Shown here piece by piece: positions 1,257-52,582 of a DNA stretch of 64,000 bases. Source of the DNA: Priestia megaterium NBRC 15308 = ATCC 14581 (GTDB lineage: Bacteria > Bacillota > Bacilli > Bacillales > Bacillaceae_H); the NCBI RefSeq assembly GCF_000832985.1, contig NZ_CP009920.1, positions 2,970,501 through 3,034,500 on the forward strand. The letters run 5' to 3'. The number at the start of each line of letters is the position of its first letter. The stretch's first letter is position 1. Below the pieces are notes generated by a model, which made no database searches, was not told the DNA's origin, and worked only from the letters and a program-made list of their open reading frames with translations. A program made the translations under genes and the position numbers.

Positions 1257-1300
1257 ATATAATAGAAAGAGGTTGGGATAAAAGGATTTTAGACGGAGTG

Positions 1301-1347
1301 AAAAACGAACCATTGATCAAGATTTTTGATTCGTGTTTCGTTTTTTT
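1301..1347 (+). terminator. Terminator hairpin inside repeat copy A
   Basis: An imperfect stem runs from AAAAACGAAC to GTTTCGTTTTTTT, with a T-run at 1341-1347. It lies about 45 bases after the tctC-like stop codon, so the repeat appears to supply the terminator for that gene. Confidence 0.65.
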
Positions 1348-1387
1348 GTTTTGGTGAGCATAGTTTCATCTGTTCTGTTCCTTCTAG

Positions 1388-1517
1388 CAGTTGATTGGAG
1401 GGCAAGACGAAGACTCCTGCGGGAAAAGCGGAAGGGGTGAGACCCCACAGGAGAGTAAGCGACGAGGAGGCTCACCGGCCGCCCGCGGAAAGCGAAGTCT
1501 TGCACGGAAATCAACTG
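1388..1517. repeat. 130-bp GC-rich core of repeat copy A
   Basis: The core begins CAGTTGATT and ends AATCAACTG, a perfect 9-bp inverted repeat. Inside it, GCAAGAC near the start can pair with GTCTTGC near the end, and CTCCTGCGGG can pair with CCCACAGGAG. Copy C at 50533-50662 has exactly the same length, with paired substitutions in the first two stems. This suggests a folded RNA or hairpin DNA. The short open frames across it are not convincing genes. Confidence 0.8.
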
Positions 1518-1601
1518 CGGAGTCAAAAGCAGTTCAGCTCATATATCTCATTTGTTCGTCTTTAGATTGAATTCATTTCGGTATGTCTTAACCTCTTTCT
1601 A

Positions 1602-20620: not shown

Positions 20621-20816
20621 AAAAGAGGCTGGGAGAAAAATAGTTTAGTTGAAGGAAGATCCGAACGATGAATCGTTCGGATTTTTTTATGGTGATGGTG
20701 AACGTAGGTTTCATATATTGAGTTGCTTCTAGCGGTGTCTCAAGCAGTTCAGCTCATATATCCCATTTGTTCGTCTTTAGATTGGAATGATGTAGCTATA
20801 TCTCAATCTCTTTTTT
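20621..20816 (+). repeat. Dispersed repeat copy B lacking the 130-bp core
   Basis: This 196-bp element starts AAAAGAGGCTGGGAGAAAA and ends in the inverted form of AAAAAGAGATTGAGATATAGCTACATC. Its two flanks match copies A and C. At the place where those have the GC-rich core it reads CTTCTAGCGGTGTC, joined directly. It therefore has the form of an empty site or a precise deletion. Confidence 0.8.
20659..20689 (+). terminator. Terminator hairpin inside repeat copy B
   Basis: ATCCGAACGAT pairs perfectly with ATCGTTCGGAT and is followed by a T-run. It lies 50 bp after the second DszC-like gene. Confidence 0.88.
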
Positions 20817-32623: not shown

Positions 32624-32716
32624 ACAACGCCACTAGGGGTGCTTTCTAAGCTGAGAGAGACGAGAAGTCTTAACCCTTATAACCTGAACTAGGTAATACT
32701 AGCGTAGGAAAGAGGT
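32624..32716 (+). ncRNA. TPP riboswitch (THI element)
   Basis: It contains the conserved blocks ACTAGGGGTGC, CTGAGAGAG, ACCCTTATAACCTGAACTAGG and ending GCGTAGGAAAG. It controls the salvage operon below. CGTAGGAAAGAGGT (32703-32716) is nearly fully complementary to the first arm of the terminator at 32789-32802. This gives a visible antiterminator when TPP is absent. Confidence 0.96.
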
Positions 32717-32782
32717 ATTGTAATGGATGTTTTGTATGGTATTTCCTTACGAACTCGTTATAATAATTTTTTGTATATAAAC

Positions 32783-50437: not shown

Positions 50438-50532
50438 TAGAACGAAAAAGAGATTGAGACATAACTACATCAATTCAATCTAAAGACAAACAAATGAAAT
50501 AAAGGAGCTCGTATCGACCATTTATTACACCG

Positions 50533-50662
50533 CTGTTGATTTCCATGCAAGGCTTCGCTTTCCGCGGGCGGCCGCTGAGCCTCCTCGTTGCTTGCGCTCC
50601 TGCGGGGTCTCATCCCTTCCGCTGTTCCCGCAGGAGTCTTCGCCTTGCCCTCCAATCAACAG
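50533..50662. repeat. 130-bp GC-rich core of repeat copy C
   Basis: Bounded by CTGTTGATT and AATCAACAG, with exactly the same length as the copy A core. On the minus strand GCAAGGC pairs with GCCTTGC, and CTCCTGCGGG pairs with CCCGCAGGAG. The first two stems differ from copy A by matched substitutions. Confidence 0.85.
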
Positions 50663-50709
50663 CTAGAAGCAACTAACTGGATGAACCCTACGTTTACCAA
50701 CACAATGAA

Positions 50710-50739
50710 AAGGTCCGAACGAGTACTCGTTCGGACCTT
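50710..50739 (-). terminator. Terminator hairpin inside repeat copy C
   Basis: A 30-base perfect palindrome, AAGGTCCGAACGAGT / ACTCGTTCGGACCTT. It is followed by a T-run on the minus strand and lies 35 bp after the yfiC-like stop. Confidence 0.88.
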
Positions 50740-50773
50740 CCTTAAACTAACATACTTTTTATTTTAGCCGCTT

Positions 50774-52582
50774 TTAAATCGTAAACTGCTGCGTATAGAG
50801 CTTGTGATAAAACCCTTGTTTCTCTAGCAGCTCGCGATGATTTCCTTCTTCAATAATTTGTCCGTCTTTTAAGACAAGGATTTGATCTGCATTTTCAATC
50901 GTTTTAAGGCGGTGGGCAATGACAAAGCTTGTTTTTCCTTTTAATAGATTACTCATTCCTCGTTGAATATCAATTTCTGTTTTTGTATCAATGTTGGAAG
51001 TAGCTTCGTCTAAAATTAAAATATCACAGTCAGAAAGCATGGCTCGAGCAATCGATAAAAGCTGCTTTTGACCTTCACTTAAATTTCCTCCGCCAGCTGA
51101 AATCACGGTATTGTATTGCTGGGGCAAATGTTTGATAAACGAATGAGCATTGGCCATCTTTGCGGCGCTTTTCACTTCTTCGTCGCTGGCATCTAACCGG
51201 CCAAATCGAATGTTATCCGCAATCGTACCGGAAAATAAATAGGTATCTTGAAGAACAATGCCGATTCGGTTTCGTAAATCATGAATGTTATAGTCACTGA
51301 TGGAACGTCCGTCAATTTTAATGTCTCCGTTTGAGATGTCATAAAATCGTGTGAGCAAGTTAATGATGGTTGTTTTACCAGAACCTGTCGGACCGACCAA
51401 AGCAACCATTTCACCTTTTTTTGCTGTCAGTGTAACATTTTTTAAAATCATTTTTTCATCGTTATAGCCAAATGATACATTCTCAAAAGCAACGTCTCCT
51501 GCAAATTTTGTAACAGAAAGAGCGTTTGGCTTGTTTGTGACGTCCGGCTGCTCATCCATAATCGCAAACACGCGCTCTGCGCCGGCAATAGCCGAAAGAA
51601 TGGTGTTTACTAAGTTTGCCATTTGACTGATTGGGCGAGAGAACTGACGTGAGTAGTTAACAAATGAAGCAATCATCCCAACTGTAACGCTACCTTGAAC
51701 AGCCATAAATGCTCCCGCTCCGATCACTAGTGCTAAGCCTAAGTTGTTAATAAAGTTTGTGACAGGACCTAAAAAGCCTGAAAATGTTTCCGCTTTTGTT
51801 GCTGAACTTCTCAGCTGTTCATTTCGTTCATTAAAAACAGTTAAAAAGTCTTTTTCCTTACTAAAAAGCGTAACAACTTCTCCTCCAGAGATTGCTTCTT
51901 CTACAAAGCCGTTTAGCTCGCCTAAGTCTTTTTGGCGTTTGACAAAATTTTCACTGCTTCGTTTTAATATTTGTCGAACGATTATAACCATCAAGGGAAT
52001 AACAATCAGCGTGATAATGGCAAGAATCCAGTTGAGCGAGAACATCGCAATGGTAATGCCGACTAAAGACAAAATAGAGGACAGAGCCTGAATAACGCTT
52101 TGACTTAGAGCGCTGTTTAGATTATCAATATCATTTGTGACTCTGCTCATTAACTCTCCGTGAGCTCGTTTGTCAAAAAAGCGAAGGGAGAGAGTCTGAA
52201 GCTTTGCAAATAAATCTTGTCGAAGCATTCCAATAGTCGTAAACGAAACGTTCACCATTAAATAGGTTTGCAGCCATGTTAACAAAGATGTCGTAATATA
52301 AATTCCTGCAAGAATAAGGGACATTCGTATCGTTCCGCTGATATCTTTGGGAATAATATGCTCATCAATAATAACCCCAATTAAATAAGGGCCTAATAAA
52401 TTAAGTAGGGAAGTCACAATAACTAAGATTATCGCAGCCGCAAGCGGAGGTTTTCGTTTCCCCATATATGACCAGATTCTGTACAGTGTTTTTTTCGCAT
52501 TTTTTGGCTTAACTACAGGGCCTTTCATCATTCCTCTAGGGCCACGAATAGAGCTCATTTGATTTTTACCTTGGTTATTCAC
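50774..52582 (-). CDS. yfiC: ABC exporter subunit, catalytically complete half (YfiC-like)
   Basis: About 602 residues: a six-helix exporter membrane domain (about 40-330) and a nucleotide-binding domain. Walker A is GPTGSGKTT and Walker B is ILILDEATSNID with the catalytic glutamate. The H-loop is VIAHR and the variant signature is LSEGQKQ. GTG 52582 overlaps the previous stop by 8 bases; ATG 52558 is an alternative. A much longer upstream frame lies inside the partner gene. It forms a heterodimer with the 52575 gene, probably exporting drugs or lipids. Confidence 0.85.
   Translation of the reverse strand: MNNQGKNQMSSIRGPRGMMKGPVVKPKNAKKTLYRIWSYMGKRKPPLAAAIILVIVTSLLNLLGPYLIGVIIDEHIIPKDISGTIRMSLILAGIYITTSLLTWLQTYLMVNVSFTTIGMLRQDLFAKLQTLSLRFFDKRAHGELMSRVTNDIDNLNSALSQSVIQALSSILSLVGITIAMFSLNWILAIITLIVIPLMVIIVRQILKRSSENFVKRQKDLGELNGFVEEAISGGEVVTLFSKEKDFLTVFNERNEQLRSSATKAETFSGFLGPVTNFINNLGLALVIGAGAFMAVQGSVTVGMIASFVNYSRQFSRPISQMANLVNTILSAIAGAERVFAIMDEQPDVTNKPNALSVTKFAGDVAFENVSFGYNDEKMILKNVTLTAKKGEMVALVGPTGSGKTTIINLLTRFYDISNGDIKIDGRSISDYNIHDLRNRIGIVLQDTYLFSGTIADNIRFGRLDASDEEVKSAAKMANAHSFIKHLPQQYNTVISAGGGNLSEGQKQLLSIARAMLSDCDILILDEATSNIDTKTEIDIQRGMSNLLKGKTSFVIAHRLKTIENADQILVLKDGQIIEEGNHRELLEKQGFYHKLYTQQFTI

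Follow-up and report, generated by a model that had tools for sequence, protein, structure and literature searches.

A 130-nt palindromic core occurs as copies A and C in a 64,000-nt stretch of the Priestia megaterium genome (the window), and the locus raises the questions of what this core belongs to, whether its pairing is selected and how it came to lie where it does. Both coordinate spans are 130 nt long, and the arms are those given in the original prediction: CAGTTGATT/AATCAACTG outside and GCAAGAC/GTCTTGC inside for A, and CTGTTGATT/AATCAACAG and GCAAGGC/GCCTTGC, respectively, for C (Table 1). The two arm changes listed there as compensatory are so, but the list was selective, as only four of the 12 differences between A and C make up two compensated pairs. 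At core positions 50-88, the G-C pair of A is broken in C (A.G), one further change turns G-C into G.T, and five differences fall on positions that are unpaired in the hairpin model, which omits the hairpin tip.

Table 1. Features of the element copies in the window (positions within the 64,000-nt stretch).
Feature	Position	Strand	Basis
Element A, 333 nt, between convergent genes; stem-loop AAAAAGCTCTCTTAAGTAGAACAGAGAGCTTTTT at the G003 site	1266–1598	+	outer5, core and outer3 profile hits
Left terminal inverted repeat of A, AAAGAGGTTGGGATAAAA, near the type-A IS1182 ends AGAGGCTGGGACAAAAC	1266–1283	+	
Terminator-like hairpin and T-run inside the left end	1301–1347	+	sequence, predicted fold, 38-copy alignment
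Core A, 130 nt, single long imperfect hairpin, module spread across the order	1388–1517	+	
P1 5' arm of core A, CAGTTGATT, partner 1509–1517	1388–1396	+	
P2 5' arm of core A, GCAAGAC, partner 1497–1503	1402–1408	+	
P2 3' arm of core A, GTCTTGC	1497–1503	+	
P1 3' arm of core A, AATCAACTG	1509–1517	+	
Right terminal inverted repeat of A (reverse complement AAAGAGGTTAAGACATAC), near the IS1182 end AGAGGCTGGGACATAAC	1581–1598	+	
Element B, outer parts kept, core lost	20622–20813	+	
Element C, full length	50447–50774	−	
Core C, 130 nt	50533–50662	−	

The core and the element that contains it

Element A consists of imperfect terminal repeats (AAAGAGGTTGGGATAAAA/GTATGTCTTAACCTCTTT) that enclose a hairpin with a T-run, the core and a right spacer. 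The hairpin varies in sequence among copies and was not called by the strict terminator scan. The orthologue of the core-less element B is of full length in G007, a genome of the same genus, and retains the first bases of the core (GTTGATTGG) in G009, another such genome; B is therefore regarded as a deletion. At the site of C, a terminator-like stem-loop was found in G003 and remnants in G009 and G007. Copies with little or no core have many distinct break points, and what is left is often a shortened hairpin with its arms kept. Judging from these alignments, we take the 130-nt core to be the centre of an element of ~330 nt and not a separate insert, and core-less copies such as B to be deletion derivatives and not empty sites. 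The earlier description of the core as nested does not hold, as the core-less copies, with their varied break points, derive from one element by deletion.

An open frame of 69 aa crosses core A at 1317–1526 (−) in the window, and two plasmids, NZ_CP069400.1 and NZ_CP069405.1, have frames that lie over the core and bear the annotation "hypothetical protein". The length differences between cores, which are not multiples of three, argue that such frames are spurious.

At least 40 core matches were counted in this genome, with 40 of 104 candidates scored. A 34-base core pattern with up to three mismatches occurs at 50 places in the genome, compared with none for the reversed control. A profile search of the 400 kb around the window turned up 29 elements, of which 14 have at least 100 nt of core and 10 have none. 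At E ≤ 0.001, and with this genome counted, nine of ten genus genomes and 13 of 16 family genomes had the core. For the order, the threshold was E ≤ 1e-8 with two candidates scored per genome, and 180 of the 299 genomes sampled had it. At least 120 stretches with a 35-base pattern came from Peribacillus, Neobacillus, Metabacillus, Cytobacillus, Mesobacillus, Fictibacillus, Alkalihalobacillus, Sporosarcina and others. Core matches were also found in 16 plasmid records, six of them from Priestia (best identity 94.6%), while the phage collection gave none and so lends no support to carriage by phages.

Several further arrangements were seen outside the genome under study. A partial core (78% over 81 nt) adjoins zwf-gnd on plasmids of Bacillus subtilis and Paenibacillus urinalis (L341 and L342), and the same partial match recurs on three more plasmid records. 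We considered whether it could be a transposon end; neither locus gave a sign of this, and the recombinase and Tn3-family transposase of L342 lie 2.3–3 kb off. Locus L157 (G284) holds two tandem cores 199 nt apart with an identical 12 nt on the left, and in L214 and L215 (G183) two core subtypes lie head to head, by eye ~65–90 nt apart.

No description of the repeat was found in the open-licence literature of PubMed Central, and core 12- and 13-mers matched the text of seven open-licence papers, all with unrelated titles.

Replacement of stem-loops at gene ends

Collinear stretches were compared within the genus, with 400 kb each from this genome (G000), G009 and G007 and 340 kb from G003. The element counts are 29, 29, 26 and 5, respectively, arranged in 34 site rows. 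A site was said to have a short allele if it measured below 80 nt in at least one genome, and there were 24 such sites. Inspection by eye and folding showed that 23 of the 24 short alleles are stem-loops, the remaining one (156781) being a remnant of the element. These 23 stem-loops nearly always carry a T-run; their sequences are unrelated from one site to another and similar among genomes at any given site. At all 23 sites, compared by eye, the element occupies the place of the stem-loop between the same A-tract and T-tract, as in the pair TAAAAAAGACCCCTGTAAGGGGGTCTTTTTTT in G007 and TAAAAAAGAGGTTGGGAC...GTCTCAACCTCTTTTTTT in G000. G003 holds terminator-like stem-loops at the sites of A, B and C, all three. 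The empty and filled alleles thus display, by eye, what defines insertion of the IS1272 type: the target stem-loop is removed, its sequence is unrelated from site to site, and no target duplication is made.

The folding of the short alleles was compared with that of 400 random intergenic windows. For this, 55-nt windows were used, and the 24 short-allele windows, which include the remnant and are not all well centred, had a median minimum free energy of −17.9 (range −34.0 to −1.5) versus −5.5 for the random set. Only 4.75% of the random windows reached the short-allele median. A run of four or more T in the 3' half was present in 21 of the 24 windows versus 39% of the random ones.

The polarity of the exchange was checked at two sites in all ten genomes of the genus, five of which hold the locus. 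At the first site, four genomes have the stem-loop and only G009 has the element, which indicates that the direction is insertion, at least there. At the second site, three genomes have the stem-loop, G000 has the element and G001 has a remnant with the core deleted. At site A of G007, the element is inverted and about equally close to A (89.8% identity), to the G009 orthologue (90.4%) and to another copy (91.2%). This suggests, without proving it, a second insertion into the same stem-loop.

The orientation of the elements was counted against genes called by a simple longest-ORF rule. In co-directional contexts, every element points with transcription (21 of 21 in G000, 20 of 20 in both G009 and G007, and 5 of 5 in G003), although these counts are not independent, since sites are common to the genomes. 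Elements of either orientation are seen between convergent genes in G000 and G007. In G000, 52 of the 229 intergenic regions are divergent, yet only one of the 29 elements lies in such a region; the counts are two of 29 in G009 and one of the 25 placeable elements in G007.

Pairing in the core and the probable folded strand

For the covariation analysis, 150 cores below 90% identity were kept out of 288 distinct full ones. Over the 46 pairs of the hairpin model, which was first recognised by eye, 87.8% of the cells are paired compared with 37.8–41.9% when the partners are slid by 1–3 columns, a control that favours the model since the structure was derived from such sequences. Double changes occur in 38 of the 46 pairs and in 348 cells, versus 48–104 cells in the slid controls; as core copies are related, these cells are not independent events. 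In a set of 34 diverse cores, 89.9% of the cells pair, compared with 80.0% in 500 shuffles, which do not preserve relatedness, and 38.9–45.4% with slid partners. The same set has 94 cells with double changes versus 23.0 in the shuffles and 18–33 in the slid controls, and none of the 500 shuffles reached the observed value. Compensatory changes therefore exceed both kinds of control, as is expected of a structured nucleic acid, and matched arms are far commoner than mismatched ones. This supports the earlier claim that pairing, in RNA or single-stranded DNA, is selected.

Individual pairs illustrate the same point in a set of 68 genus cores without gaps. At pair 2-129, 24 cores have TA, 23 have AT, 5 have GC and one has another Watson–Crick pair, with 3 wobble and 12 unpaired cases, and pair 20-111 is AT in 27, GT in 22, GC in 17 and otherwise composed in 2, with no A.C. 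A mutual-information scan that uses no structure placed 8 of its 20 top column pairs in the hairpin model; a ninth (6-137) adds one pair to it and the rest lie outside. RNAalifold gave a weak result on the 34 rows (−5.73 kcal/mol, double changes in 15 of its 23 pairs) and returned no structure on the 150 rows. Near the hairpin tip, a G.A/A.G tandem (pairs 69-80 and 70-79) is exchanged for G-C/C-G, mostly as a unit, and columns 70 and 80 of the core alignment read AA in 59 cores and CC in 41. By eye, GGA/GGA internal loops are retained in the hairpin.

Wobble pairs bear on the question of which strand folds. Over 30 pairs in the 68 genus cores, there are 72 G.U cells versus 22 A.C cells; for the 16 arm pairs the numbers are 52 versus 7, or 30 versus 7 without pair 20-111. 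At five G-C pairs of the arms, G.T was seen in 20 of 340 cells and A.C in 1 of 340. At unpaired positions, the two underlying changes are nearly alike, C>T in 15 of 272 (5.5%) and G>A in 35 of 884 (4.0%). Since G.T exceeds A.C at arm pairs while unpaired C>T and G>A hardly differ, this evidence favours the GTTGATTGG strand as the putative folded strand in the genus. The predicted fold of the genus consensus is −59.3 kcal/mol for the sense strand versus −49.0 kcal/mol for the opposite one. Order-wide wobble pairs were also tried for the choice of strand and gave no decision: there are 144 G.U versus 247 A.C cells, or 113 A.C without pair 62-86, and the asymmetry of the genus is absent over the whole hairpin. 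By helix, the order-wide ratio of G.U to A.C is 56 to 16 in P2, 11 to 22 in P3 and 30 to 39 in P4.

A scan of positions 1200–1700 found neither a sigma-70-type promoter nor a strict terminator at A, and core A had no Rfam match at the gathering score. The only Rfam match of the window at that score is a TPP riboswitch at 32625–32727 (+). We think that pairing of the core is required in cis, either as single-stranded DNA during transposition or as RNA.

IS1182-type transposons and the probable origin of the element

One paper (PMC5678879) describes IS1272, cited there as a member of the IS1182 family, as replacing target inverted repeats without target duplication. Since IS1272 is reported to act in this way, we searched for IS1182-type transposases (PF13751). 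This genome gave no match to PF13751 and none to the protein of locus L447, so that an autonomous partner was not found in the same genome by these searches. Four of the ten genus genomes had a PF13751 match, three of them above the cut-off, and among the genus genomes with matches are G004, G006 and G008; in the order, 90 of 299 genomes had one (E ≤ 1e-20). Of 64 loci, 57 contain, close to the middle, an open stretch of 200 aa or more. Seven of the 57, from seven genomes (L447, L448, L450, L451, L452, L457 and L458), share the terminal repeats of the element over 17–18 bp, as is to be expected for a MITE of the IS1182 family. Their ends read AGAGGCTGGGACAAAAC, with AGAGGCTGGGACATAAC in its place at one end or at both in some; L447 and L457 deviate by single changes. 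A left–right difference of AAAA/ATAA is present in four of these seven type-A-end elements and absent from L447, L451 and L457. The transposase of L447 belongs to IS1182 by NCBIfam NF033551 (426.6 bits versus a cut-off of 270), as do those of L433 and L423 by NCBIfam; the family assignment of the other six type-A-end elements comes from PF13751.

A related core lies upstream of and antisense to the transposase gene in 15 loci (L395, L419, L423, L426, L428, L433, L439–L446 and L453), and eight of the core-upstream IS1182-type loci were hand-picked from G250 and G195. In L427, the core is upstream of the transposase gene as well and is cut by the locus edge. None of the seven type-A-end elements carries a core inside, so that simple deletion within one of them does not account for the MITE; L458 has a core just outside. 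In L395 (G008, same genus), one core lies on each side of an interrupted IS1182-type gene, where the matches to the outer ends of the element are weak (E 0.0056 for outer3, and E 0.035 for outer5 in one search and not listed in another). On the strength of these comparisons, the MITE is best seen as type-A ends combined with the leader module of other IS1182-type elements.

Two observations concern these other elements. Locus L453 (G138) has an IS1182-type gene (open stretch of 451 aa) between two inverted cores. IS1182-type elements whose ends are CAGACTGTAGAC-like (L396, L426, L433, L436, L439, L440, L442, L443, L445, L446 and L453) have on either side an exact copy, 22–34 bp long, of the same palindromic stem-loop. 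In these cases, it seems, the whole stem-loop target is duplicated and not replaced.

Two alternatives concern the nature of the mobile unit. The core could be an independent small mobile element inside the outer palindrome, with B as the empty site, given that copy B joins TTCTAGC to GGTGTC without a core and that related cores have other end types in other genera. Among 202 cores outside the species group examined for flanking arms, 18 have GGCTNTKTT arms and L285, one of the cores classed as "other", has CAGACTGTAGAC-type arms, while an automatic search found no arms scoring 10 or more in 148 of the 202. The widely differing break points of the core-less and core-reduced copies, often with remaining arms, the full or partial core of the B orthologues and the same outer element around most of the 38 aligned core copies (by eye) speak against true nesting and make it very unlikely. 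A REP- or BIME-like repeat moved by a Y1 (RAYT) transposase would likewise be palindromic, intergenic and multicopy, and the inverted cores near each other in G183 would suit it. However, G000 has no Y1_Tnp (PF01797) match in a search that was positive in 5 of 14 control genomes, and this origin is barely conceivable.

The pairing, too, may be accounted for in other ways. Long palindromes are prone to arm-to-arm correction, and arm-sparing internal deletions are frequent in this element, so that template switching or repair within the palindrome might keep the arms complementary without selection on structure. Such copying would erase the persisting G.A/A.G tandem and the GGA/GGA loops, and the arm asymmetry of G.U over A.C (52 to 7) is not expected from it; these persisting non-Watson–Crick motifs and the asymmetry in the genus arms argue against mere palindrome repair, an account that we judge quite unlikely. 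Domestication of the core is also unlikely, if slightly less so; on that view, it would be a small RNA or 3'-UTR element that transposition has spread and that is now kept for a host function. The co-orientation with the upstream gene, the sense-strand asymmetry in the arms and the better fold of the sense strand would agree with such a role. However, the core is lost or broken in many orthologous copies, many of which the host therefore does not need, neither a promoter-like site at A nor an Rfam match was found, and co-orientation may equally stem from the target or from selection for termination.

We consider it highly probable that the core is the centre of a non-autonomous IS1182-type MITE of ~330 nt that moves by replacing terminator stem-loops, and that its core strand must fold. 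Of this, the element as a unit, the exchange of stem-loops, the orientation rule, the covariation, the match of the ends and the presence of the core in the leaders of insertion sequences were observed; an IS1182 transposase as the mover and the task of the core are inferred. The MITE ends in terminal repeats that read AGAGGCTGGGACAAAA...TTATGTCCCAGCCTCT. The mover is most likely an IS1182 transposase, supplied by an element that was lost here or was transiently present, which would recognise these ends together with the stem-loop target, excise the target hairpin and join the element between the A-tract and the T-tract of the host. The host gene would retain an ending of a hairpin plus a T-run after the insertion. 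As a gene that keeps a terminator-like end would be little harmed, this can explain why the elements are confined to gene ends and why they follow the orientation rule. The core would serve as a cis module, one also seen in IS1182-type elements upstream of their transposase gene. A single long hairpin would have to form from its GTTGATTGG strand, which has the sense of the upstream gene and is antisense to the transposase, most likely since transposition or its control uses this strand as single-stranded DNA or RNA.

A broader reading is possible but tentative: the core may be an exchangeable structured module of several transposon types (type A, CAGACTGTAGAC and GGCTNTKTT), with its sense fold active in the swapping of stem-loops. 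It might, for example, be recognised as single-stranded DNA or RNA during the exchange of the terminator hairpin, or act as an antisense RNA against the transposase leader. If so, transposons would have rewritten the terminators of many genes across a bacterial order.

The MITE resembles several known systems in part. The bcr1 repeat, said in a cited title to be specific to the B. cereus group, is likewise a short structured mobile repeat of bacilli. It makes short target duplications on insertion, whereas the element described here replaces a stem-loop, a distinction drawn by description. EFAR elements of Enterococcus faecalis are short, modular palindromic repeats at stem-loop sites and, by this description, resemble the MITE. 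A passage of PMC3733652 mentions them in passing. Bhal-1 of Bacillus halodurans, a 74-bp stem-loop family with 36 copies according to a passage of PMC2267715, is a stem-loop repeat family of a related genus and, by description alone, could be a piece of the core. A close parallel is IS1272/IS1182. According to PMC5678879, a short stem-loop target is removed without target duplication, as here, the targets in model A of that paper measure 21–85 bp, and some targets are not inverted repeats; the Bacillales elements that share the ends of the MITE encode transposases of the IS1182 type. The difference is that the present element is gene-less and ~330 nt long and has a conserved structured core, and that the family transposase was not found in the genome.

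Stem-loop replacement and IS1182 are already known. The MITE family, a core common to different end types, the 23 before/after sites and the orientation rule were not described in the literature that we found. A covarying core is now defined, which is present in 180 of the 299 sampled genomes of the order and has no Rfam match for the copy tested. The 23 sites provide natural before/after pairs for stem-loop replacement, a mode found described for IS1272 (PMC5678879), and show it for an element with dozens of copies per genome. They make it possible to test why terminators offer transposons a safe harbour and how insertion gets oriented with transcription.
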